Below are positions 1,399-64,000 of a stretch of DNA of 64,000 nt, one piece after another. The number at the start of each line of letters is the position of its first letter. Within the stretch, counting starts at the first letter, position 1. The translations under genes and the position numbers were made by a program. The notes under the pieces were generated by a model. It saw only the letters and a program-made list of their open reading frames with translations. It was not told where the DNA came from and searched no databases. The DNA comes from Dyella subtropica (GTDB lineage Bacteria; Pseudomonadota; Gammaproteobacteria; Xanthomonadales; Rhodanobacteraceae), in NCBI RefSeq assembly GCF_026283965.1, contig NZ_JAPDPD010000001.1:186001-250000 (forward strand). Reading direction: 5' to 3'.

Positions 1399-1510
1399 AA
1401 AGGGGTCACACGGTGGTCCGCGCGAGCCGGCAATCATACGCGGGGTGGTTCGTCGTGACAACTCCCTGGACATGGGGCATGCTGGGCTTACACGTTTCTC
1501 TCAGCAGCTC

Positions 1511-2212
1511 ATGATCGAATTCGGACACGGTACCCACGTCGGCCTGCGCCGTACGCGCAATGAAGACACCTATTACGCCGACGCGGGGCTGGGCCTGTTC
1601 CTGGTCGCCGACGGCATGGGCGGGCACCAGCATGGCGAGGTGGCCTCGGCCTTGGTCCGTGACGCGGTGGCGGATTTGGTGACGCGCGGGCATAGCCTGA
1701 TTGATGCGGTGCGCGGTGCGGATGAGCGGCTGATGGCACAGGCCAAGGGCTGCCAGGATGCCTTGCCTATGGGCACGACGATCGCGGCGCTGCGGCTGAG
1801 TACGAATAGCTATGAGGTGGCCTGGGTTGGCGATAGTCGCATCTACCTGTGGCAGAACGGGCTGAAGCAAATCAGCCACGATCACTCGTTGGTGCAGGAG
1901 CTGGTTGCGGCGGGCGCGCTGGATCCGGCGCGGGCTGCACGCCATCCGCAGCGCAATGTGATTACCCAGGCGCTGGGCATTACCGCCCTCGACCAATTGC
2001 ACATCGGCATGGCGCGCGGCGAGCTGGAGCCGGGCATGTGTTTCCTGCTGTGCAGTGACGGACTCACGGAGGAAGTGAGCGATGCGGGCATCGCACGCAT
2101 CGTGGAACGTCGCGATCTGGCCGTGCAGGAATGCGTCGATCATCTGTTGCTCGCCGCGCTCGATGGCGGCGGCAGCGATAACGTGACGGCAATTTTGGCC
2201 CGCGCTAACTGA
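1511..2212 (+). CDS. PP2C-family serine/threonine phosphatase
   Basis: Cytoplasmic metal-dependent protein phosphatase of the PrpC/Stp1 type. The PP2C metal ligands are visible in order: RRTRNEDTYY, FLVADGMGGHQHGE, AWVGDSRIYLW, FLLCSDGLTEEV and GGGSDNVTAILAR. At 233 residues the protein is a bare catalytic domain without membrane segment or fused kinase. The start at 1511 matches the usual family N-terminus (MIEFGHGTHVG), but there is no clear ribosome site, and the frame stays open upstream to 1445. Partner kinases are not in the window; related proteins counteract Hanks-type kinases or act in type VI secretion control. Confidence 0.88.
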   Translation: MIEFGHGTHVGLRRTRNEDTYYADAGLGLFLVADGMGGHQHGEVASALVRDAVADLVTRGHSLIDAVRGADERLMAQAKGCQDALPMGTTIAALRLSTNSYEVAWVGDSRIYLWQNGLKQISHDHSLVQELVAAGALDPARAARHPQRNVITQALGITALDQLHIGMARGELEPGMCFLLCSDGLTEEVSDAGIARIVERRDLAVQECVDHLLLAALDGGGSDNVTAILARAN

Positions 2213-2230
2213 CACGGGCCGTCGCGACGC

Positions 2231-2510
2231 TTAAGGATGCTCTGATCTATTCCGCGCACCCGTCACCGCCCTGTATGCGCGCAGCGGTTTGTCGCAGCGG
2301 CGAAGGCAGACTGGCTGTCTGTCGAGACGCTGGGGCGAAGCGCTGCGCGCATACAGGGCGGCCCCCACGTGTTGAATTCAATGATGGGGTGACGTCCAGA
2401 AGGCCCGCAGGCTGCGCCGCGCGGCTTGAACAGACGGCCACCACGCAACACACCCTGCGGGCCTTCTGGACGTCATGCCGGGTACGTGGAATAGATCAGA
2501 GCATCCTTAA
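2231..2510. repeat. nested palindromic element, about 280 bp
   Basis: The outer arms, 2231-2253 and 2488-2510, are perfect 23-bp inverted repeats and continue imperfectly for about nine more bases inward. Inside are two further perfect hairpins of 21 bp: 2266-2286 with 2341-2361, and 2391-2411 with 2454-2474. The right outer arm overlaps the dnaQ stop codon. No credible protein is encoded. The design (terminal inverted repeats around self-complementary arms) suggests a non-autonomous mobile or RNA-structured repeat, related in layout to the larger element at 30.2-30.8 kb. Confidence 0.8.
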
Positions 2511-3226
2511 TGCCTCGTGTTTTCTTCCTTGCGCCAAACGCTGGCGCCGCCGGCGCTCTTATCTAGCGCATCAAGACGACGTTCGTGCGCCATCAGCTCA
2601 TTCGCGTCGGCACGCAGCACGCGTGGACGTCGATCCAGCACAACCGGCATGACCACCTTGGCGGCACCCTGCTCCGGCGAGCTTTCGAAACCCAGGTCCA
2701 GCACCACCTGGCCCGAGGTCATCGCCAGGTAGACCTCGGCCAGCAGCTGAGCGTCGATCAAACCGCCGTGCAGGTCGCGCGCCGAGTTGTCCACGCCAAG
2801 GCGTTTGCATAGCGCGTCCAGGCTGTTGCGCTGCCCGGGATACCGTTCTCGCGCCATCACCAGCGTATCGAGCACACTGCAGTGATCGGCGATGCGCCCG
2901 TAATGCTCACCGGCGCGCGCGAGCTCGGCATCGAGGAAGCCCACGTCGAAGGCGGCGTTGTGGATGATCAGCTCGGCTCCGTCGATGAAAGCGAGAAACT
3001 CTTCCACGACGTCGTTGAAATGCGGCTTGTCGAGCAGGAACTCGTCTTCGATGCCAGTGACCTGCTTCGCCCCCTCATCGATCAGACGATCCGGATTGAG
3101 GTAGGTCTGGTAATGCCTGCCGGTCGGCCGCCGCTCGAACATCTCGACACAGGCGATTTCGATCAGGCGATGGCCCTGGCGCACCTCCAGACCCGTGGTT
3201 TCGGTATCGAGGACGATCTGCCTCAT
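2507..3226 (-). CDS. dnaQ: DNA polymerase III epsilon subunit (proofreading 3'-5' exonuclease)
   Basis: Proofreading subunit of the replicative polymerase core. DEDD exonuclease motifs are present: [11 protein letters not shown] (Exo I, residues 4-14), [16 protein letters not shown] (Exo II) and [17 protein letters not shown] (Exo III, DEDDh type). The C-terminal tail should hold the alpha-subunit-binding segment. It is 239 residues, normal for the family. The start codon overlaps the rnhA stop by four bases, so the two genes are translationally coupled. The last codons and the stop lie inside the right arm of a palindromic element, which may act as its transcript end. Confidence 0.96.
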
Positions 3227-3666
3227 CGTCTGCTCCTGTACTGCTCGGCCTGCTCACGTGCGGCTTCATCGACGCGCTCGTTTTCGGCATGGCCATTGTG
3301 GCCCTTCACCCACTGCCAGCTCAGCTGGTGAGGAGCGGTGGCCTCTGAAAGACGCTGCCACAGATCCTGATTCTTCACCGGTTTCTTGTCGGCGGTTTTC
3401 CAGCCGTTGGCGCGCCATTTGGGCACCCACTGCTCGATGCCTTGCATGACGTATTTCGAGTCGGTGGTGAGGGTGACCTTGCATGGACGCGTTAGCGCTT
3501 CGAGTGCGGCAATGGCGGCCATCAACTCCATGCGGTTGTTGGTGGTGTCCGGTTCGCCACCGGCCAGCATGCGCTCCGTGCCCTTGGCACGCAGCAGCGC
3601 GGCCCAGCCGCCCGGCCCGGGATTGCCGAGGCATGCGCCATCGGTAAAAGCTTGTACGTCAGTCAT
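3223..3666 (-). CDS. rnhA: ribonuclease HI
   Basis: Degrades RNA in RNA-DNA hybrids, including primers and R-loops. The four acidic catalytic residues are visible: Asp in [16 protein letters not shown], Glu in [16 protein letters not shown], Asp in [15 protein letters not shown], and Asp in [12 protein letters not shown]. Length 147 is standard. It overlaps dnaQ by four bases, the same rnhA-dnaQ pairing found across gammaproteobacteria. In E. coli the two genes are divergent; here they form one operon. Confidence 0.96.
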
Positions 3667-3696
3667 CGTTGCCTGCAGTTATTCATTGTCACAGCA

Positions 3697-4383
3697 TCAA
3701 GAGGAGGCATTACGCCTCGCTCCCGGTGCCAGGTTTACATTTACCGGTGCTGGCACCAGCTTGGGCTTCAGTCGTGTCGGTATCGCCATGCGCCGACGCT
3801 TGCGAGCGATAAGCACATAACCACCGCCGAGGGCGCTGATGCCCCGGGTATGCGCACCGCCATTCGGCCATACATGGCCGACGCGATGAATGCGTTCGAC
3901 GTCCAGCTCGCCGGCGCGCACCCATCGTTCCAGCGTCAGCGGCGACTTCAGCGCCGGCATCGAACCGCCACGGGTATACCAATACAGCCAGGGCAACCAC
4001 CCGCTCAAGGGGTGCATGCCGGTGAGCGCGAGCACACCGCCGGGGGCCAGCACACGACAGGCTTCCTGCAGTAACGCCTGCGGCGCGGGCGCCACTTCCA
4101 CAGCATGCCGTAACAGCACCAGGCCGAAAGCATCGTCGACAAAAGGCAACGCCTCGTCTGACCGTGCGCGAATGTCGCCGTGATAGCGGTTGGCGACCAG
4201 GCGCATGCGCGCCCAATTGCCCAGCAACGGCAATACCGGAGGATGGTCATGCGACAGCGCGGACACCAGCAGCGCATGCGTACCCGCGCAGCGCTGGAGG
4301 TCCGGCAGCAAGGCAGCCGCTTCCTCAGCCAACAGGTGGCGAAGATGCGCGCTGGCGTAGATGTCTTTGTCGCGCTGCGGCAT
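3697..4383 (-). CDS. SAM-dependent methyltransferase (YafS-like)
   Basis: Class I methyltransferase of the methyltransf_11 type with unknown substrate. The SAM-binding fold is recognisable around residues 75-135, including EALPFVDDAFGLVLLRHAVE and ACRVLAPGGVLALTGMHP. The tail is basic and rich in Pro and Ala. The gene sits between gloB and rnhA, exactly where E. coli has yafS, so orthology is likely. The ATG at 4383 is chosen; a TTG five codons upstream is also possible and neither has a strong ribosome site. The gloB promoter region lies between the two divergent genes. Confidence 0.82.
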   Translation of the reverse strand: MPQRDKDIYASAHLRHLLAEEAAALLPDLQRCAGTHALLVSALSHDHPPVLPLLGNWARMRLVANRYHGDIRARSDEALPFVDDAFGLVLLRHAVEVAPAPQALLQEACRVLAPGGVLALTGMHPLSGWLPWLYWYTRGGSMPALKSPLTLERWVRAGELDVERIHRVGHVWPNGGAHTRGISALGGGYVLIARKRRRMAIPTRLKPKLVPAPVNVNLAPGARRNASS

Positions 4384-4602
4384 GCGTGGGCGGCCCAACA
4401 GTCAAGACGAGAGTGTAATAGCTGGCACCCGCAATAGCGCCGTGGCTCTCATGGTTGGGTCCAACCAGGACACAAGACTGAACGCGTAACCGGCCTGTTA
4501 ACACCTCGCTAACGAGTCAGCTTCACTGCCGCTTTATAGTCCCACGCCTCGCGCAAGCCGGAAGCCTGCGCCAGTCGATACGAATCCGCAGAGGAGTACC
4601 CC

Positions 4603-5367
4603 TTGCACGTCGTACCGTTACCGGCGCTTGCCGACAACTATATCTGGCTGCTGCACGACGACGATGGCAACGCGATCGTGGTCGATCCCGGCGAAGCGGC
4701 ACCGGTCGAAGCTGCGCTATCCGAACGGAAGCTACGGCTTCGGGCCATCCTGCTCACTCACCACCACAACGATCACATCGGTGGCGTGGGCGCCTTGCTG
4801 GCTCGTCATCCTGCGGCGGTTTACGCGCCGCGTGACGAGCGCATCGACTACGTTGCCCAGCGCGTGGGAGACGGCGACGAAGTATCGATCGATGGGCTAC
4901 GTGCGCGCTTTCGGGTGATCGAGATTCCCGGCCACACGCTCAGCCACATTGCCTACGTTGGCGAAGGTGTACTGCTCTGCGGAGACACGCTTTTCAGCAT
5001 GGGCTGTGGCCGCCTGTTCGAAGGCACGCCACAGCAAATGCTGACCTCACTGGATCGGCTCGCATCTCTGCCAGGCAACACCAAAGTCTGCTGTGGGCAT
5101 GAATACACGGCCGCCAATGGCCGCTTCGCGCTGACTATCGAGCCGCACAACCCCGCGCTTGCCGAGCGCATCGAGCAGGTACAGACGCTACGCGACCAGC
5201 AGCAACCCAGCCTGCCCGTGACGCTGGCCACCGAACTGGCCTCCAACCCCTTCCTGCGTGTCGATACCGACGAAGTCACGGAGTGGTGCCGTCGTCATGG
5301 TGCGGCGACCGATCGCGTTACACGCTTTGCCACCCTTCGCGCTGCCAAGGACGTATTCCGCGGATGA
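4603..5367 (+). CDS. gloB: hydroxyacylglutathione hydrolase (glyoxalase II)
   Basis: Hydrolyses S-D-lactoylglutathione to D-lactate and glutathione, the second step of methylglyoxal detoxification. The metallo-beta-lactamase zinc motif LTHHHNDHIGG is at about residues 51-61, followed by EIPGHTLSHIAYV and the metal ligand region LLCGDTLFSMGCGRLFEGT and CCGHEYTAAN. The C-terminal HAGH substrate domain is complete. Translation starts at a TTG (4603) with GAGGAG twelve bases upstream; no ATG fits the conserved N-terminus. The stop overlaps the mltD start (ATGA). Confidence 0.95.
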   Translation: MHVVPLPALADNYIWLLHDDDGNAIVVDPGEAAPVEAALSERKLRLRAILLTHHHNDHIGGVGALLARHPAAVYAPRDERIDYVAQRVGDGDEVSIDGLRARFRVIEIPGHTLSHIAYVGEGVLLCGDTLFSMGCGRLFEGTPQQMLTSLDRLASLPGNTKVCCGHEYTAANGRFALTIEPHNPALAERIEQVQTLRDQQQPSLPVTLATELASNPFLRVDTDEVTEWCRRHGAATDRVTRFATLRAAKDVFRG

Positions 5368-6596
5368 AACGCCCTTCCCTTCGCCCCCTGCCTATCGTGC
5401 TCTCCACGCTACTGGCCGCTTGCGCCAGTGCGCCATCCCAGCTGCCTCGAACGTCGGCATCGGCAGGTAATCTCAAGCCGCCACATCCGACGATCAGTGA
5501 TGTGACACACAATGTCGGCGGCGCGGCCACCCCGCTGGAGACGTCCAACGTCTGGGAGCAACTGCGTAGCAGTTTCGCTATGGCCGATTGCGATGCCGAC
5601 CCAGCGATTCTCGACTGGGCGAGACGCTACACGCAAAGCCCGCAGCGCTTTGAGGCGCAGATGCGTGAAGTGATGCCTCGCCTGATTTATGTCCAACAGA
5701 TCGCAGCGAAACATGGTGTGGCCGGCGAGTTCGCGTTGCTGCCGTGGGTGGAAAGCCGTTATCGGCCGATGCCTGGCAGCAAAGGCAGTCCCGCCGGGAT
5801 GTGGCAAATCATGCAGGCGACCGCCAACGCACTAGGCATGCGCGTCGACAAAAACTACGACGGACGTCTGGATGTCCCTGCCGCCACCGACGCCATGATG
5901 GCTCTGTTGAAGCGCTATCACGACGACCTGGGGGACTGGCGATTGGCGGACTACGCCTACAACGCCGGCGAGTTTGCCATTCGCAGATTGATCGACCAGC
6001 ACGGCGCACCCGCTGCCGAACCGATCATTCCGAAAATGCCTGTCAAGCGCATCACGCGAGAACATCTGACCAAGCTGCTGGCCATTTCCTGCGTCGTGCG
6101 CGAGCCGGGCCGCTTCAAGGTCAACTTGCCGCTGCTCCCCGCGGAACAGCACCTGGTTTCGGTAGACGTCGACCAATCGATGCCCATCGCGCAGGCCGCC
6201 AATCATGCCGGCATGTCGGTCGATGAGCTGAAGGACCTCAACGCAGGATTCCGCAACGGCTTTATCGATAAGCGCGCAGCTTCCTATCTGTTGATGCCAC
6301 GTAACCACGCCGAGCAATTCCGCAACGCGCCACTGCAAACCGGTAACGACACGGCCAGCACCTACGCCGCGGGTCTATCACCGCTCATGGAGAACGGCGA
6401 CGGCCCATCGCCTGTGGCGGGCGACGATTCCGCACCGTCCCCGGGCAACAAGACGCACACCGTCAAGTCAGGCGAAACGCTTTGGATTATCGCCCGCCGC
6501 TATTCGCTCAACGTGGACCAGCTCAAGCGCTGGAACCACCTGCAGGATGCGAAGCTGCGCCTTGGCCAGATATTGAAGATCAGCGCGCCGGGTTGA
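5364..6596 (+). CDS. mltD: membrane-bound lytic murein transglycosylase D
   Basis: Peptidoglycan-cleaving lipoprotein of the cell envelope. A short signal peptide ends in the lipobox LLAAC (Cys about residue 20). The SLT domain contains the catalytic glutamate in LLPWVESRYRP and the AGMWQIMQATA and DYAYNAGE motifs. A degenerate LysM-like segment (SVDVDQSMPIAQAANHAGMS) and one clear C-terminal LysM (HTVKSGETLWIIARRY) bind glycan. ATG at 5364 is chosen because it gives the signal peptide directly and overlaps the gloB stop by four bases; the longer frame upstream lies inside gloB. At 410 residues it is slightly short for MltD because it has fewer LysM repeats. Confidence 0.93.
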   Translation: MKRPSLRPLPIVLSTLLAACASAPSQLPRTSASAGNLKPPHPTISDVTHNVGGAATPLETSNVWEQLRSSFAMADCDADPAILDWARRYTQSPQRFEAQMREVMPRLIYVQQIAAKHGVAGEFALLPWVESRYRPMPGSKGSPAGMWQIMQATANALGMRVDKNYDGRLDVPAATDAMMALLKRYHDDLGDWRLADYAYNAGEFAIRRLIDQHGAPAAEPIIPKMPVKRITREHLTKLLAISCVVREPGRFKVNLPLLPAEQHLVSVDVDQSMPIAQAANHAGMSVDELKDLNAGFRNGFIDKRAASYLLMPRNHAEQFRNAPLQTGNDTASTYAAGLSPLMENGDGPSPVAGDDSAPSPGNKTHTVKSGETLWIIARRYSLNVDQLKRWNHLQDAKLRLGQILKISAPG

Positions 6597-55377: not shown

Positions 55378-55453
55378 GCCGGAATAGCTCAGTTGGTAGA
55401 GCGGCGCATTCGTAATGCGTAGGTCGCAGGTTCGACTCCTGTTTCCGGCACCA
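55378..55453 (+). tRNA. tRNA-Thr (CGT)
   Basis: Begins GCCGGAATAGCTCAGTTGG and ends TTCCGGC-A-CCA. The ATTCGTAA stretch gives anticodon CGT. It marks the boundary between the core-like region on the left and the accessory region on the right, so its 3' end is a likely attachment site. Confidence 0.95.
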
Positions 55454-55466
55454 GTTTTACCAATTA

Positions 55467-55653: not shown

Positions 55654-56745
55654 GTGGAACTGGTACCCCTGGCAGCGGATCAACTTAAGGTACCTCAGCC
55701 GATAAGCGGGTTTGGAATCACCGACATGACGGCCCACTACCTCTACCGGCACGACACTCTCCCCTCGCTCCGAAGACAGGCAGGTGACCCGTGGCTCCGC
55801 GCGCGGCGACTGCGGAAGCAGCCAGCAACCTTTCCGCACTGGCAGTTGGGCGAGGCGCTGGCGCAGGCCAGGCCCGGCGACGGCGTCTTCCAGTTGTCAA
55901 TGTGGCGGTCGCTCCAAGGGGCGCTGCCCGATCTCATATTGCAGCACTTGCTCGCCAGGCAGCCTAATAACACGATCGGCGCGCCACTGATGCTGCAGCG
56001 GATTCGCGCTGATCATCCGATGTTCCTGGCCTACCAGCGCGGCGATGACGAACACCTGCCGGGCAAGGCGTGGCTGTTCTGGAACACGGCACCATGCAGC
56101 GATGCACAGGACTGGTCGACTGACGGCGTTCACCATGACGATATCGAGGTGTTCCATCCGGGCGGGCACTGGGCGCCATTCGACCAAGTGGTCACGACGC
56201 ACGACGCCCCGTTGACGCCAGCACCAGGCTGGACCCGATTGCCGCTTGAACCCGCCTACGCCGGCGAACCAGACCGGGTGGTCGACGTACGCTGGGTGGA
56301 CCACCCGTCGCTGGGCCGCTGCGTATTCGCCCGTATCCCCGTGTGGAGCCCCGGGGTATGGCCAGCTGACTGGTACACCCTGCAACTCCTAGGGCGGACG
56401 CTCTTGATCGCATTTCCTGAGCTCATTCTCTCAGGCCAGGCGATCGTTGCGCTTGAGCGAACCGGCTACACCATGACCTACGACATCACCATTTCTAGGA
56501 CAGCGGCAACCCGCGCATCGTGGTTCGCGCGCGTCTTTCGCGGAGCCACCGACCAACCCGCCTCAGCGACGTTCCGGGATGCCGAACTCCTGTCACAGGA
56601 GAAAGCCAGTGTCACGAGCGTCTACGCGGCGGCAGGTCTCGACTGCGCATCGCTCAGCACGTCGGCTTTCGTGTACGGCCGCGAAGCCATGGCAACTCTC
56701 GAGGCGGAAGCCGCGGCGGAACTCGCTCGAATGGAGAACGCCTAG
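55654..56745 (+). CDS. hypothetical protein, island-borne
   Basis: I do not recognise this 363-residue protein. It is soluble-looking, with no signal peptide and no long hydrophobic helix apart from LLIAFPELILSGQAIVAL (about 250-267). It is rich in Trp, Pro and His (for example PGGHWAPFDQVV and IPVWSPGVWPADWYTLQLL), and ends in an Ala/Glu-rich helix (TLEAEAAAELARMENA). The GTG at 55654 has AGGA upstream; an ATG at 55726 is an alternative. It is the first gene after tRNA-Thr and precedes the PHP-ATPase gene on the same strand, separated by 325 bases. Confidence 0.6.
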   Translation: MELVPLAADQLKVPQPISGFGITDMTAHYLYRHDTLPSLRRQAGDPWLRARRLRKQPATFPHWQLGEALAQARPGDGVFQLSMWRSLQGALPDLILQHLLARQPNNTIGAPLMLQRIRADHPMFLAYQRGDDEHLPGKAWLFWNTAPCSDAQDWSTDGVHHDDIEVFHPGGHWAPFDQVVTTHDAPLTPAPGWTRLPLEPAYAGEPDRVVDVRWVDHPSLGRCVFARIPVWSPGVWPADWYTLQLLGRTLLIAFPELILSGQAIVALERTGYTMTYDITISRTAATRASWFARVFRGATDQPASATFRDAELLSQEKASVTSVYAAAGLDCASLSTSAFVYGREAMATLEAEAAAELARMENA

Positions 56746-57070: not shown

Positions 57071-60049
57071 ATGATCAGTCGTGGTTCGGAATGGCACCGA
57101 TGGGAGCCGCATATCCATGCGCCCGGCACAGTCCTCAACAACCAGTTTGGCGCCACCGATCCATGGGGTGCCTACCTAACGACACTTGAAGGTTCAACAC
57201 CAACAATCGAGGCGATCGCAGTCACCGACTACTATGTCACGGACAGCTACGAAGAAGTTCTTAAGCACAAGGCCGCTGGCCGACTTCCCAATGTACGCCT
57301 GCTCTTCCCCAACATAGAGCTACGTCTAGACGTTGCGGCAAAATCTGGCTTTGTCAACATTCACCTGTTGGTCAGTCCAGAAGATCCCGATCACATCGCA
57401 GAAGTCACGCGCATCCTCAAGCGCCTGCAGTTTCACGCTTATAACGACCGATTCGACTGCACGCGCGACGAATTGATCAAAATCGGAAAGCGCGCCGATC
57501 CGGCGATCGTCGATGACGGCGCAGCCCTTAGGCATGGTGCAACGCAATTCAAAGTTAATTTTGACCAATTGCGTAAAGTCATTTATGAAAGCGAATGGGC
57601 AAAGGAAAACATCCTTATCGCCGTCGCTGGCGGAGCCGGGGATGGCACTTCAGGCTTGAGGCAGGCCGCTGACGCCACCATGCGTCAGGAGATTGAGAAG
57701 TTCGCCCATATCATCTTTTCGAGCAGCCCTGCCCAGCGGGAGTTCTGGCTCGGCCAGCGACCCGGCGTATCCGTCGAAGAGCTGCGCGCCCGATATGACG
57801 GCTGCAAGCCCTGCCTTCACGGCAGCGATTCCCATGACCAAAAGTCAGTTGGACAGCCCGTCGGTATGCGGTTTTCTTGGATCAAGGGCGCTCTGGAATT
57901 CGATGCCCTCCGCCAGGCGTGCATCGATCCCGAGGGCCGCGCATATATCGGCGAGGAGCCCCCTCAGTCGGCGATGCCATCACAAGTCATCTCGCACGTA
58001 AAGATGACTGATGCAGAATGGGCGACCACGACCGACATCCCACTGAATCCGGGCCTCGTGGCAATCATTGGCGCACGCGGCTCAGGCAAAACCGCCTTGG
58101 CCGACGTGATCGCGGCAGGCTGCGATGCGATCCCACCCTCGGGGTGGTATGCAGACGAGCACATTAGTCCTTCCTTTCTTGCTCGAGCACGCAAGCTAAT
58201 TGGCGACGCGGCAACGACACTCACATGGGCTGGTGGCGCAACTGTCACGCGCGCGCTCAATGGCAGCGATGCCGGCGGACACATGTCTTTTCCGCGGGCG
58301 CGCTATCTGTCCCAGCAGTTCGTCGAGGAGTTGTGTTCGTCGAAAGGTGTCACGGACGGCCTCGTTGATGAGATCGAGAGGGTAATTTTCGAGTCGCATG
58401 CCCCAGATGATCGCGACGGAGCGATTGACTTTGCTGAGCTGCGCGACCAGCAGACTGCAAGGTTTAGGCGCGCCCGCGAGCGAGAAACCGACGCGATCGG
58501 CGACATCTCCGATCGCATTAGCACAGAGTTTGAGAAGGAGGCTCTCGTCGCGACGCTTACGGCGCAGGTGAATCAGAAGAAGAAGCTAGTCGCCGACTAC
58601 AACGCGGATCTCGCCAAGCTCGTGGTCAAGGGAACTGAAGCACAGGTTGCCCGGCACACCCAGCTCAGTGAAGCAGCACAAAAGCTCAGAGGCAGAATCC
58701 AGACCTTTGGCAATCGACGTCGCTCATTCGTCGCCTTGCAAGACGAGGTCCAGAGCATGCGAGCAACTCGCGCTCCGGAGATACTCCGCCAAACCCAGGC
58801 GCGCCACTCCAACAGCGGCATGGATGCTAGCCAATGGGACGCGTTTCTCTTGATCTACAAGGGAGACGTAGACAAGAGCCTATCCGCGTACATCGCATGG
58901 GCAGATCAGCAAATCGCCAGTCTCAACGGCACGCCCTCACCCCCCGGAGATCCGAACGTTCCATTGATCGCCGACAACATCGATCTAGCCACACTTCCGC
59001 TCGCACCGATTGCAGCGGAAATGGCAAGACTTGAAGCACTTTTTGGCGCCGATAAGCTTGTTCGCGATCAATACTCGGCACTTGTCGGTCGCATTGCCCA
59101 GGAGAGTTCTGCGCTGCAATCTCTTGAAGTGCGGCTTACGGACGCACAGGGGGCGGCAGCTCGCAGACGGGACCTTCAGAACGAGCGCGATGACACTTAT
59201 GGCCGGATCTTCGACGCGATCATCAATGAGCAGAACGCTCTTGAGAACCTTTATGTGCCATTGATGGAGCGTCTCGCGGCATCATCAGGCACCCTCAATA
59301 GGCTCCGCTTCTCGGTTCGCCGGATCGCCGATGTCGAAAAATGGGGCACATTCGCTGAGGAAGAACTCCTCGACAGGCGGAAAGCCGGACCGTTTTACGG
59401 TCGCGGCTCGCTGATTTCGGAGGCAACGCAGGCGCTCAAATCAGCGTGGGAGAGTGGCTCGGCAGTGGACGTTCAATCCGCGATGACAGCCTTTATGGCT
59501 AAATACCTCAAGGATATTCTGTCTCATGCGCCATACGCCCCAACACAACAGGCGGAATTTCGCGCCTGGTCCAAGCAGTTTGCACACTGGCTCTTTAGCA
59601 CCGATCACATAACAGTGCGCTATGAGATCTCTTATGACGGTCTCGACATCCGAAAGCTTTCGCCCGGCACGCGGGGCATCGTACTTTTGTTGCTCTATCT
59701 TGCCCTCGATGATTCGGACGATCGTCCGCTGATCATCGATCAGCCAGAGGAGAATCTCGATCCGAAGTCCGTATTCGACGAGTTGGTTGCGCTATTCATT
59801 GCGGCCAAGGCCAAGCGCCAAGTCATCATGGTCACTCATAACGCCAACCTCGTCATAAACACGGACGCTGATCAGATCATCGTGGCCGAGTCTGGCCCAC
59901 ACCCGTCTGGTGGTCTTCCTGCCATTAGCTACGTGGCTGGCGGACTGGAAAGCGCTGCAATTCGGAAGGCCGTCTGTGACATTCTCGAGGGCGGTGAAAC
60001 TGCCTTCCGTGAGCGAGCACGACGACTTCGCGTTCGTCTCGATCGATGA
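57071..60049 (+). CDS. PHP-domain / SMC-like AAA ATPase, candidate defence protein
   Basis: A 992-residue fusion. Residues 1-270 are a PHP-type metallo-phosphoesterase domain: HxH in WEPHIHAPG (His14, His16) and the late motif HGSDSHD (251-256). An ABC/SMC-type ATPase follows, with Walker A GARGSGKT (334-341), a long coiled-coil centre (about 460-780), the signature LSPGTRGIVLLLL (from 863), Walker B PLIIDQPEENLD (886-897) and the switch histidine in IMVTHNANL. From memory, this layout matches proteins named TrlF-family AAA-like ATPases and the PHP-SMC (ppl-type) phage-defence gene. The likely role is ATP-gated nucleic-acid or nucleotide cleavage. Base composition is lower in GC than the core genes. 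Confidence 0.85.
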   Translation: MISRGSEWHRWEPHIHAPGTVLNNQFGATDPWGAYLTTLEGSTPTIEAIAVTDYYVTDSYEEVLKHKAAGRLPNVRLLFPNIELRLDVAAKSGFVNIHLLVSPEDPDHIAEVTRILKRLQFHAYNDRFDCTRDELIKIGKRADPAIVDDGAALRHGATQFKVNFDQLRKVIYESEWAKENILIAVAGGAGDGTSGLRQAADATMRQEIEKFAHIIFSSSPAQREFWLGQRPGVSVEELRARYDGCKPCLHGSDSHDQKSVGQPVGMRFSWIKGALEFDALRQACIDPEGRAYIGEEPPQSAMPSQVISHVKMTDAEWATTTDIPLNPGLVAIIGARGSGKTALADVIAAGCDAIPPSGWYADEHISPSFLARARKLIGDAATTLTWAGGATVTRALNGSDAGGHMSFPRARYLSQQFVEELCSSKGVTDGLVDEIERVIFESHAPDDRDGAIDFAELRDQQTARFRRARERETDAIGDISDRISTEFEKEALVATLTAQVNQKKKLVADYNADLAKLVVKGTEAQVARHTQLSEAAQKLRGRIQTFGNRRRSFVALQDEVQSMRATRAPEILRQTQARHSNSGMDASQWDAFLLIYKGDVDKSLSAYIAWADQQIASLNGTPSPPGDPNVPLIADNIDLATLPLAPIAAEMARLEALFGADKLVRDQYSALVGRIAQESSALQSLEVRLTDAQGAAARRRDLQNERDDTYGRIFDAIINEQNALENLYVPLMERLAASSGTLNRLRFSVRRIADVEKWGTFAEEELLDRRKAGPFYGRGSLISEATQALKSAWESGSAVDVQSAMTAFMAKYLKDILSHAPYAPTQQAEFRAWSKQFAHWLFSTDHITVRYEISYDGLDIRKLSPGTRGIVLLLLYLALDDSDDRPLIIDQPEENLDPKSVFDELVALFIAAKAKRQVIMVTHNANLVINTDADQIIVAESGPHPSGGLPAISYVAGGLESAAIRKAVCDILEGGETAFRERARRLRVRLDR

Positions 60050-60064
60050 GGTCAAGCCAGAGCC

Positions 60065-60514
60065 ATGTTGCCGCACAGCAAAGACGCAATAGTTATCCCC
60101 AGCGCCGACGCCGAGGTTTTGTGCCGCTTTGCCAACAGACTGATTGGCCTGCTGGCAGAAACCCGGTCTCAGTTGATTGCACAGGATGCGATGCTTCGCG
60201 AGACAGCCGTCGATGGCGACAGCGCATATTGGCTGCAACTCAACGACCAGCATCTTCAATCGTGGGATTTCCATCTTACGGATATCAAGCTTGAGCAAGC
60301 AATTAAGCGCGCAGCTTTAGATTCAGGGTTTCTCGCCCTGGCCGGCTACGCGGAGTTGACTATTGAGTCCCGAGATCACCGTGATATCGCGGCATCAGAT
60401 TTGGTAGAGAAATGTGACGCCGAATTGAAACGCGAAGAAGCGCTGCGGGAAGCCGAACGCATACGGAGGCGTCTCGAAAAAAGAGCCGCCAAATTGGCCA
60501 AGCAGAAGTCGTGA
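60065..60514 (+). CDS. small coiled-coil protein following the PHP-ATPase
   Basis: A 149-residue protein that I do not recognise. It starts 15 bases after the ATPase stop and is surely cotranscribed. The N-terminal half is helical (VLCRFANRLIGLLAETRSQL), and the C-terminus is a strongly charged helix (ELKREEALREAERIRRRLEKRAAKLAKQKS, given here in parts: ELKREEALREAER then IRRRLEKRAAK). It may be a partner or nucleic-acid-binding subunit of the ATPase. Confidence 0.68.
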   Translation: MLPHSKDAIVIPSADAEVLCRFANRLIGLLAETRSQLIAQDAMLRETAVDGDSAYWLQLNDQHLQSWDFHLTDIKLEQAIKRAALDSGFLALAGYAELTIESRDHRDIAASDLVEKCDAELKREEALREAERIRRRLEKRAAKLAKQKS

Positions 60515-61281: not shown

Positions 61282-62265
61282 ATGCAAGCCTTCATCGTCG
61301 AGCCGACACCATCGGTGTCGGCTGGCGAGGCTTGTCATGCGTCCGTATCCACGCATTCACGCCTTGCGCCAGACAAACACAAGCAATGCGATTTCTTCGT
61401 CGCAGACATTCTTGATGCTTCGCTAAAGGACGACGTAGCAAGTATGGAGCACCCACTGTTCGCTTTGCGCGCTGGCGACCGTCGCATACGCATATACGAG
61501 CGAAAAGGAATCAGGGTGACCGTTAAGCCCGGCGTCGATGGCTGCGCGACAATTCATGATAAAGACCTATGGATCTACTGCATCAGCCAGTTGGTCGAGG
61601 CAAAAAACCGTGGCCGCGAGATTGCACGCACAGTTCGTTTCACTGCCTACGATTTCTTGCACACGACCAACCGCGACACCAGCGGCCGCGCCTATGTCCG
61701 CCTGGGAGAGATGCTTGCACGACTCACTGGCACGCGCATAGAAACGAACATCGAGACGTCGGGCAAACGCGAACGCGGGTTCTTCGGACTGGTCGATTCC
61801 GCCAGGATCATCGAACGTGATGATGATGAACGCATGGTCGCTGTAGAGGTGACATTACCCGACTGGCTGTTTCGATCAGTTGATGCCATGCGCGTCCTGA
61901 CCCTCAGTCGCGACTACTTCCGGCTGCGGAGACCCTTGGACCGCCGCATCTACGAACTAGCCCGCAAGCACTGTGGCAACCAGTCAAGCTGGAAGGCCAG
62001 CGTCGCCACATTGCACGAAAAGAGTGGTAGTGCCGCCCCTCTCAGGAACTTCCGTATCGATATGCGTCATTTGGCCGACTCTGGTGAGCTACCCGACTAC
62101 CGCATGGCATTTGACGCTAAGGCTGATGCTGTGACGTTCTACGCCAATGGACCTAAGGGCTACCGTGCCGAGATCGAGGCCATGATGAATGGCTTACCTT
62201 ACTCGTCTGCCAGGGCCCGCACAAAGGCCCATACACGGAAATCCGGGAGGGCCAAGCGCATCTAA
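61282..62265 (+). CDS. plasmid replication initiator protein A (RPA/RepA family)
   Basis: A 327-residue initiator resembling the Replication initiator protein A family of proteobacterial plasmids. It contains DDVASMEHPLFALRAGDRRIRIYE, ATIHDKDLWIYCISQLVEAKNRGREIARTVRFTAYDFL in blocks, VEVTLPDWLFRSV and LSRDYFRLRRPLDRRIYELARKHCG. The winged-helix core is complete. It should bind iterons to open the origin; matching repeats lie directly downstream. The stop codon overlaps an inverted half-iteron. Confidence 0.88.
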   Translation: MQAFIVEPTPSVSAGEACHASVSTHSRLAPDKHKQCDFFVADILDASLKDDVASMEHPLFALRAGDRRIRIYERKGIRVTVKPGVDGCATIHDKDLWIYCISQLVEAKNRGREIARTVRFTAYDFLHTTNRDTSGRAYVRLGEMLARLTGTRIETNIETSGKRERGFFGLVDSARIIERDDDERMVAVEVTLPDWLFRSVDAMRVLTLSRDYFRLRRPLDRRIYELARKHCGNQSSWKASVATLHEKSGSAAPLRNFRIDMRHLADSGELPDYRMAFDAKADAVTFYANGPKGYRAEIEAMMNGLPYSSARARTKAHTRKSGRAKRI

Positions 62266-62549: not shown

Positions 62550-62819
62550 ATGGCCGTCAGTCAGAAACTCAGCATCTCGCTGCCCGAAGAACAAGCCAAG
62601 TTTGTCGAAAAGCTGGTTGGCTCGGGCCAGTACGCCAGTGCCAGCGCGGTAATCAGCGACGGCCTACGCGCGTTGCAGGCACGCGATGCGGCCATGGAGA
62701 AATGGCTGCGTGAGGAAGTCATGCCGGCGTACCACGAGCTGGTCGCCGATCCGTCGAAGGGCATAACCGTCGCGCAGATGCGTGCCGAACTCATGCGTCG
62801 TCGTCGGCCGCGAACGTAA
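62550..62819 (+). CDS. parD: ParD-type ribbon-helix-helix antitoxin
   Basis: An 89-residue type II antitoxin. It starts MAVSQKLSISLPEEQAKFVEKLVGSG and contains YASASAVISDGLRALQARDAA, the RHH DNA-binding part. The C-terminal toxin-wrapping region ends MRAELMRRRRP. The expected parE follows but is frameshifted. It probably represses its own promoter. Confidence 0.87.
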   Translation: MAVSQKLSISLPEEQAKFVEKLVGSGQYASASAVISDGLRALQARDAAMEKWLREEVMPAYHELVADPSKGITVAQMRAELMRRRRPRT

Positions 62820-63149: not shown

Positions 63150-63175
63150 GAAGTTTGCCGTTAACGGCAAACTTC
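63150..63175. repeat. palindrome copy 1 (TTTGCCGTTAACGGCAAA)
   Basis: The 18-bp core at 63154-63171 is perfect, and flanking GAAG / CTTC extends the palindrome to 26 bp. Confidence 0.88.
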
Positions 63176-63206
63176 CCTACCTCGGGATCAACGGTTCCCC
63201 ACATCG

Positions 63207-63228
63207 ACTTTGCCGTTAACGGCAAAGT
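63207..63228. repeat. palindrome copy 2 (TTTGCCGTTAACGGCAAA)
   Basis: The 18-bp core at 63209-63226 is perfect, with AC / GT flanks giving 22 bp. It lies 55 bases after copy 1. Confidence 0.88.
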
Positions 63229-63262
63229 TCGCTGCACGCCATCGAGCAGATTGCTTCCCCAG

Positions 63263-63284
63263 ACTTTGCCGTTAACGGAAAAGT
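63263..63284. repeat. palindrome copy 3 (one mismatch)
   Basis: The core at 63265-63282 reads TTTGCCGTTAACGGAAAA, one change from the other copies. It lies 56 bases after copy 2, so copies 1-3 are almost evenly spaced. Confidence 0.85.
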
Positions 63285-63402
63285 TGGCACTCAACCATCC
63301 TATAAAAAAATCTATCAGGTGGATCGGCGCACATTTTTCTCATCGCCCTCTTTTAGCTAAGACTCACGCGAACAGACCAAAGCAATAGTGGAACATAAAG
63401 GG

Positions 63403-63498
63403 TGTCGGACATTTATCCTCCATTACAATATTAGTTACTGTTTTGACGGATATTAACCGTCGGACACGTCAATGCTGATTGTCCGACAACGTCCGACA
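63403..63498. promoter_or_regulatory. cluster of TGTCCGACA motifs upstream of the RHH gene
   Basis: Four copies of TGTCCGACA or its complement lie at 63403-63411, 63459-63466, 63480-63488 and 63491-63498, just ahead of the ribosome site AGGGGA and the ATG at 63509. Repeated short sites at the promoter of a ribbon-helix-helix gene suggest an autoregulatory operator. Confidence 0.7.
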
Positions 63499-63508
63499 GG
63501 GGAATTTG

Positions 63509-63937
63509 ATGCCATTCAAGCTAAGCGTTCGCATTCCTGATTATCTAAGCCATCAACTGGAGGATGCGGTTGATGAGAGAGGAGTAATTGGAGCTAGGAC
63601 AGACATCGTCTGTGAGGCGCTAGCTCAGTACTTCAAAGCCAATGCCGAGCGGGACTCTCGTGACGAGATGGAGGCCCGTATAGCTGCCACCCTCACTCGC
63701 GTACTGAAGGATGTGATGCAGGGTCGCAATGAAGTCCAGCTCCTAACAGCCATGTTCGACTGCTATCTCCGAAGCTACTTCATGCACACGCCACCGGTTC
63801 CGCGAGAGGCCGTAGACGCATCGGCAGCCTCTGCGGCCGATCGATACGATCGGCTCATTCGTCAGATCCCGGAAATGATGCAAGGGGGAGGCGGCGCCCT
63901 TACGGAGTTCCAACAGGCGCTCCACTCCCGTTCCTGA
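63509..63937 (+). CDS. ribbon-helix-helix DNA-binding protein, island-borne
   Basis: A 142-residue protein. The first 50 residues (MPFKLSVRIPDYLSHQLEDA and TDIVCEALAQYFKANAERD) have the CopG-like RHH pattern; the remainder is helical with no recognised domain and ends GGGALTEFQQALHSRS. AGGGGA lies nine bases before the ATG. It lies within the TTTGCCGTTAACGGCAAA array, with copies on both sides, and behind the TGTCCGACA cluster. A partition, conjugation-accessory or copy-control role is possible; I cannot choose. Confidence 0.7.
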   Translation: MPFKLSVRIPDYLSHQLEDAVDERGVIGARTDIVCEALAQYFKANAERDSRDEMEARIAATLTRVLKDVMQGRNEVQLLTAMFDCYLRSYFMHTPPVPREAVDASAASAADRYDRLIRQIPEMMQGGGGALTEFQQALHSRS

Positions 63938-63947
63938 TGCATCCGAC

Positions 63948-63965
63948 TTTGCCGTTAACGGCAAA
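63948..63965. repeat. palindrome copy 4 (TTTGCCGTTAACGGCAAA)
   Basis: A perfect 18-bp copy ten bases after the RHH gene stop and 35 bases before the window end; further copies may lie beyond. Confidence 0.88.
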
Positions 63966-64000
63966 CATTCCGTACTTCGACCCGAAAGAACCCTTGTCGG

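Follow-up and report, generated by a model that had tools for sequence, protein, structure and literature searches.

The window analysed here is a stretch of 64,000 nucleotides from Dyella subtropica (contig NZ_JAPDPD010000001.1, positions 186,001 to 250,000). It contains a large open reading frame (ORF) for a protein of 992 amino acids (aa), followed on the same strand after 15 bases by an ORF of 149 aa and preceded by one of 363 aa. An earlier note on this DNA, whose ORFs and coordinates were found to be exact (Table 1), had proposed that they form a phage-defence unit of two or three genes. The locus raises the question of which family the large protein belongs to, whether its domains retain their expected active-site residues and whether it would act alone. 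It was identified as a full-length member of the TrlF family, in a branch whose PHP domain lacks two histidines that are lost together.

A full-length TrlF family protein

The 992 aa protein was matched by the NCBIfam TrlF family model NF045780 with 712.8 bits (1.1e-213; cut-off 350), its residues 4-986 aligning to positions 1-943 of the 944 of the model. As a single family model is matched from end to end, a chance ORF was ruled out. Length was also found to be near constant among TrlF relatives (984-998 aa in 79 of 82). The earlier description of a protein joining a PHP phosphoesterase to an SMC-like ATPase, and resembling Ppl, was borne out; membership in Ppl was not, with the Ppl model NF042955 giving only 121.6 bits over two stretches against a cut-off of 1000. 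The PADLOC Ppl model PDLC02208 gave 111.3 bits, also over two stretches, and the model of the Spaf_1101 family AAA-like ATPase (NF045781, cut-off 475) gave 120.3 bits. The protein is a member of the TrlF family and not a Ppl.

PHP domain, ATPase head and predicted structure

Pfam identified no PHP domain in the 992 aa protein at E-values up to 0.1. The assignment of a putative PHP domain at the N-terminus relies on matches of the N-terminal family profile to solved PHP proteins, namely 9etk (3.6e-7), the 5'-3' exoribonuclease 7ug9 (3.6e-6), 3e0f, 2anu and 3f2b, and weakly YcdX (1m65). Seven PHP positions are kept in the window protein (His14, His16, Asp53, Glu83, His98, Asp253 and His255). However, Tyr54 replaces the histidine of the TDH motif, and Val185/Ala186 are found where relatives have the histidine of IHAG (position 185 in that alignment) or of AHxD (position 186).

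These features were found to be shared across the branch. Among 83 branch members (ORFs of more than 880 aa with a stop codon, broken or cut copies being excluded), HxH was present in 82 of 82 letters with one gap, Asp53 in 82 of 83, and Glu83, His98, Asp253 and His255 in all 83. The TDH histidine was tyrosine in 83/83, and in every member residue 185 was valine, isoleucine or methionine and residue 186 alanine. In a mixed alignment of 23 sequences, the second histidine was absent from all twelve rows with Tyr54 and present in 10 of the 11 rows with His54, indicating that the two losses go together. This coupling suggests that one metal site has been given up or rebuilt. The PHP motif set had been described as intact, which holds for HxH, the glutamate, the histidine and DxH, and not for the canonical histidines of TDH and AHxD. 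In two proteins, L152 and L031, HxH and DxH were found to be changed too.

All 92 aligned relatives, which comprise the 83 branch members and nine other rows (the masked and partial L111 among them), share Walker A Lys340, signature residues S864 and G866, Walker B Asp890 and H-loop His923 without exception. ABC and SMC ATPases normally carry a catalytic glutamate directly after the Walker B aspartate. In all 92 relatives, across all branches, this place is taken by a glutamine (Gln891), so that the complete ABC/SMC ATPase of the earlier note stands for the other motifs and fails at this residue. As the seven PHP positions are near-universal among the 83 members and the ATPase residues are invariant, both domains are under selection.

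In an AlphaFold model of the protein (35 sequences; pLDDT 85.3, pTM 0.68), the N-terminus forms a domain of mixed alpha/beta type, the ATPase head is split, and long helices occur inside residues 454-578 and 644-737. These helices fit a coiled-coil insert, in agreement with the long coiled coil described earlier as far as predicted helices go. The proposed PHP and ATPase folds draw on sequence profiles together with the secondary structure of this model.

Table 1. Features of the TrlF locus and of the island carrying it (window coordinates; window-equivalent positions above 64,000 lie beyond the window)
Feature	Position	Strand	Evidence or remark
tRNA-Thr (CGT), integration site	55378..55453	+	ARAGORN
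Left att repeat, 50 bp, 3' part of tRNA	55405..55454	+	exact second copy at window-equivalent 71586-71635
363 aa cargo gene, 325 bases upstream of TrlF	55654..56745	+	no Pfam, NCBIfam, PADLOC or PHROG match
TrlF family PHP / SMC-like ATPase, 992 aa	57071..60049	+	NF045780, branch and motif analysis, AlphaFold model
N-terminal PHP-like domain, about residues 1-290, border approximate	57071..57940	+	profile matches to solved PHP proteins, conservation
Walker A half of ATPase head (Gly334-Thr341 at 58070-58093)	58031..58150	+	Lys340 in 92/92
Predicted helical insert between ATPase halves	58430..59281	+	AlphaFold model, with helices inside 454-578 and 644-737
Signature, Walker B (Asp890-Gln891-Pro-Glu893) and H-loop half of ATPase head	59627..59890	+	invariant residues
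149 aa charged orphan gene, predicted all-helical	60065..60514	+	coding-like composition, no family match
Replication initiator protein A of island	61282..62265	+	PF10134, 3.5e-94
Tyrosine-type integrase	window-equivalent 70386-71516		PF00589, 4e-25

Distribution and branches of the family

With an alignment of 14 sequences as query, genome contigs yielded 446 related stretches, of which 80 were kept. Within these 80, the identity of the best segments was 63-87%, and the sources were Acidobacteria and Alpha-, Beta-, Gamma- and Deltaproteobacteria, while a few contigs from metagenome-assembled genomes bore other labels. At least 80% of the TrlF query was covered in 45 plasmid records, and a scan of viral contigs gave 29 matches, many of them distant. 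Within the order to which the window belongs, TrlF exceeded its cut-off in 17 of 299 genomes, the window's own included. Full-length SMC matches below that cut-off, present in nearly every genome of the order and in 14 of 14 control genomes, were taken to be ordinary SMC proteins. High identity across distant taxa combined with this patchy presence points to frequent transfer of TrlF.

A maximum-likelihood tree of 35 rows, for which the program warned of long branches, resolved the branch of the window protein (13 rows, support 100/100), a Ppl-leaning branch (6 rows, 100/100) holding the trlG-linked protein L029 and an Escherichia coli plasmid TrlF, and a third set (10 rows, 99/99). Seven further proteins drawn from all three branches each passed the TrlF cut-off (7/7) and never the Ppl cut-off (0/7), and the TrlF label is therefore broad, the family as defined by NCBI covering at least three well-separated branches that differ in metal-site make-up and neighbours.

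Neighbours of TrlF relatives

Proteins encoded around TrlF relatives were compared with PADLOC models of defence systems. The neighbour set was drawn up with a home-made ORF caller and comprised 240 proteins, each 100 aa or longer and encoded no more than 3 kb and two genes away from TrlF; the scan omitted the near-copies L061 and L122, a single 5.4-kb ORF judged implausible and the last 20 proteins, with 110 and 109 proteins remaining. The controls, 110 of 119 proteins, came from 30 stretches (40 had been requested) picked in the same genomes regardless of TrlF. Models were rung 249 times per 110 and 228 times per 109 neighbour proteins, compared to 10 times per 110 controls (1e-10), a difference that overstates the effect as the models are redundant and one protein rings at least 24 of them. 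Among 20 sampled neighbours, the five that rang a model were HamB, a type IIG restriction enzyme, QatC, the candidate PDC-S31 and the kinase-like PD-T4-6. Other neighbours named by PADLOC were AbiEii, REase III, PtuA, QatA and a retron-type reverse transcriptase (RT), and on annotated plasmids restriction systems, ABC-three-component and toxin-antitoxin genes adjoin TrlF in several, not all, cases. The surroundings of relatives thus support the defence role that had been suggested for the window protein.

Recurrent genes were also observed close to TrlF. A gene of 472-525 aa lies 37-52 bases 3' of TrlF in five loci (L060, L062, L073, L095 and L127) and is followed in four of these by a gene of 283-293 aa, the two being a candidate partner pair of TrlF. 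In six loci (L058, L059, L060, L061, L062 and L074), a gap of 18-21 bases separates TrlF from the end of an upstream ATPase gene of the DUF4143/AAA_14 type (418-430 aa). In L024, the TrlF-type ORF (1480-4560) overlaps that of an AIPR protein (4535-6058), and on the minus strand of L029, TrlF (1492-4380) abuts a TrlG-type SLFN_AlbA_2/HATPase_c_4 protein (227-1489). Due to the overlapping and abutting genes of L024 and L029, other TrlF branches may be true two-gene systems.

The 149 and 363 amino acid genes

It is very improbable that TrlF of the window forms a system with the 149 aa gene, and perhaps also the 363 aa gene, as partner, antitoxin or adaptor. Such an arrangement would agree with the short gap on the same strand and with the ability of TrlF to take partners, a downstream gene lying within 60 bp at 23 of 84 TrlF loci (L029 and L024, described above, being examples of partners). 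It would also agree with the coding-like composition of the 149 aa ORF, whose GC content by codon position is 0.627/0.407/0.587 and whose codon score of 0.191 is near that of TrlF (0.203) and above that of 25 spurious ORFs (mean -0.074) by a small margin over the best of them (0.184). A structural model of the 149 aa protein, built without relatives, was all-helical and of low confidence (pLDDT 64.2).

However, the 149 aa gene was not found to accompany TrlF. The earlier note had proposed profile searches of all three proteins and a co-occurrence check, and of the three only the 992 aa protein was assigned to a family, the 149 and 363 aa proteins having no match at the cut-offs of the four databases named in Table 1. 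Weak matches of the 149 aa protein to 3eby (PDB, E 0.017) and Imm68 (Pfam, E 0.08) were not trusted. DNA-pattern scans for relatives of its gene returned none in genome contigs or viral contigs, the genus search returned the window's own copy only (one of six genomes), and no credible relative was identified among 72,556 plasmid and 50,697 phage records. In 299 genomes of the order, a single weak match (E 0.0014, 38% over residues 67-134, inside an open frame of 342 aa) was obtained besides the window's copy, and in 369 genomes of the class three weak matches (E 0.0018-0.0072) besides that copy.

The same was seen at TrlF loci themselves. A TBLASTN search of 150 other loci, including 140 of TrlF type, gave no credible relative; the best match (E 0.008) was in L014, a locus brought in by the same query, and those in L003, L004 and L096 (E 0.077, 0.20 and 2.7) were shadow frames of other genes. 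Weak matches of the 149 aa protein (E 0.001-2.7) were rejected as chance, those of E 0.008-0.2 lying in wrong frames or in the self-fetched locus. No relative was found beside the TrlF that is 87% identical (L047) or the one of 83% in the same order (L019), nor in 50 whole genomes carrying close TrlF homologues, an empty result obtained without a positive control. Across these loci, genomes, plasmids and phages, the 149 aa gene was never found together with PHP-ATPase homologues. It is probably an unrelated passenger, although it may instead be a very fast-evolving partner of TrlF.

An operon with the 363 aa gene was rejected because 325 bases separate it from TrlF. Distant relatives of its product were identified in two plasmid records, and in the one viewed these were not beside TrlF. 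The unit of two or three genes envisaged for this locus was consequently not upheld.

An island integrated at tRNA-Thr

The att repeat flanking the TrlF locus consists of the last 49 bases of the tRNA-Thr gene and the next base, and its two copies (Table 1) delimit an island within which a TrbL/VirB6 protein is encoded. GC content was 0.575 for the island, compared to 0.609 and 0.639 outside. In two of five congeners (G004 and G005) the site is empty, the tRNA-Thr gene being joined directly to the right flank; the other three had other spacings at this gene, of approximately 0.4, 3 and 5 kb, and the locus is an apparent integration hot spot. The att repeats, the integrase and the empty sites thus identify TrlF as cargo of a 16.2-kb integrative element.

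Further elements were observed on this island. An ORF of 152 aa (63479-63937), whose N-terminus is, by eye, ribbon-helix-helix-like, lies between two clusters, each of three palindromes around TTTGCCGTTAACGGCAAA at a spacing of 55-57 bases. The palindromes lie at 63151-63288 and 63945-63971, with further copies beyond the window at window-equivalent positions 64002-64028 and 64058-64084, and CCGTTAACGG has six matches against 0.45 expected. These clusters may serve the island in partition or as its origin. A ParD-type antitoxin, just above the cut-off of TIGR02606, is encoded at 62550-62819.

Proposed role of TrlF and alternative explanations

We favour, with modest confidence, the explanation that TrlF is a stand-alone, horizontally moving defence protein of the PHP-nuclease type, gated by ATP and with a remodelled metal site. 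The SMC/Rad50-like ATPase head, split by the helical insert and carrying the PHP phosphoesterase domain at its N-terminus, would sense a nucleic-acid structure that an incoming phage or plasmid produces, with DNA ends as the best candidate trigger by analogy with Ppl. Binding of ATP would close the head, with prolonged closure possible because glutamine follows the Walker B aspartate, and the PHP domain would then cut nucleic acid and so protect the cell. The 149 aa gene would not be a needed part.

Several points weigh against this explanation. The two substituted histidine positions of the PHP domain are conserved ones, and in DNA polymerases a PHP domain whose site is substituted is considered inactive (PMC12926913). 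The sole genetic study found of a trl locus reports temperature restriction and not defence (PMC7554251), and the literature searched, which takes in few subscription journals, yielded no experiment on any TrlF with phages or on nuclease activity. Among the proteins scanned in the window's own island, no other recognised defence gene was identified. Counted per protein, a defence model was rung by 5 of 20 sampled neighbours and by no more than 10 of 110 controls (p 0.056 in a one-sided Fisher test that takes this maximum), and the kinase-like PD-T4-6 match may be generic. With the redundancy of the PADLOC models taken into account, the association between TrlF and defence genes is clear in kind and modest in this small per-protein test.

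The loss of the histidines allows a different explanation, in which this branch has a PHP domain that is catalytically dead or serves only as structure and TrlF is a DNA-binding ATPase sensor that clamps DNA or recruits host nucleases. The presence of TDY and the absence of a histidine at 185/186 in all 83 members, the coupling of both losses in the mixed set and the polymerase precedent agree with it, but HxH, Glu83, His98 and DxH stay in nearly every member, where drift of the kind seen in L152 and L031 would be expected of a dead site. We consider a dead domain fairly unlikely. A bolder extension of the favoured explanation is that the branch constitutes a distinct class of single-gene immune ATPase, its PHP domain rebuilt by the coupled loss for another metal count and substrate (RNA or nucleotides, for example, and not 3' DNA ends) and its natural D-Q Walker B giving a long-lived ATP clamp; this is tentative and would have to be called doubtful.

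TrlF could also lack a role in defence and serve mobile elements as a module for maintenance, growth restriction or stress, like the trl locus of Photorhabdus after which the family is named (PMC7554251). The many plasmids carrying TrlF would suit such a module. However, in that study the Photorhabdus phenotype mapped to trlG, with none of the mutations found in trlF; in addition, no trlG-type gene was found among the window ORFs scanned, and the neighbourhood evidence favours defence, so that this explanation is judged unlikely. We infer that the temperature phenotype and a defence role would be compatible if heat triggered autoimmunity by a defence locus.

TrlF itself is a known type of protein. 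What makes the locus notable is the coupled loss of histidines in its branch, within a mobile family for which no phage test was found in the literature searched, and this loss poses the direct question of whether the PHP site is dead or its substrate changed. If the branch is defensive, a common and very mobile protein, for which a single scan of species genomes gave 446 related stretches, joins the immune repertoire.

Comparison with known systems

The trl locus of Photorhabdus, an operon of trlR, trlF and trlG, is reported to confer temperature restriction with a growth limit at 36 °C, the mutations described being in trlG (PMC7554251). It resembles the window locus in that the window protein is a full-length TrlF with a mobile, patchy distribution. 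It differs in that no trlG-type gene lies by the window TrlF, whose downstream gene matches no family. Among seven window ORFs scanned in Pfam, no AlbA_2/HATPase_c_4 protein was identified; the operon is not part of the NCBI definition of TrlF. The trlG-linked TrlF of L029 belongs to another branch than that of the window and has TDH and AHxD intact.

The C-terminal ATPase half of the window protein was also found to match the Spaf_1101 family, the score remaining below the family cut-off. The stand-alone PHP phosphoesterases 9etk and 7ug9 align with the window protein in their PHP motifs; they differ in having no ATPase and in possessing TDH and an AHPGR motif where the window branch has TDY and VA.

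Ppl of E. coli is described in a review as a single-gene defence system with PHP and NTPase domains that acts as a 3'-5' single-stranded DNA (ssDNA) exonuclease, restrained by NTPs bound at both domains and activated by 3'-OH ends (PMC12904381). No study of Ppl itself was found in the literature searched, PMC12265719, considered as a candidate, dealing with a different system named Clover. It shares with the window protein the union of a PHP domain and an SMC-like NTPase in one protein, and the C-terminal ATPase half of the latter matches it (residues 839-986). The Ppl-leaning relatives L198 and L199 possess the same DQPE Walker B as the window protein. Along the whole length of the Ppl model, Ppl-leaning TrlF proteins score 478-614, and they keep both of the histidines that are absent in the window protein.

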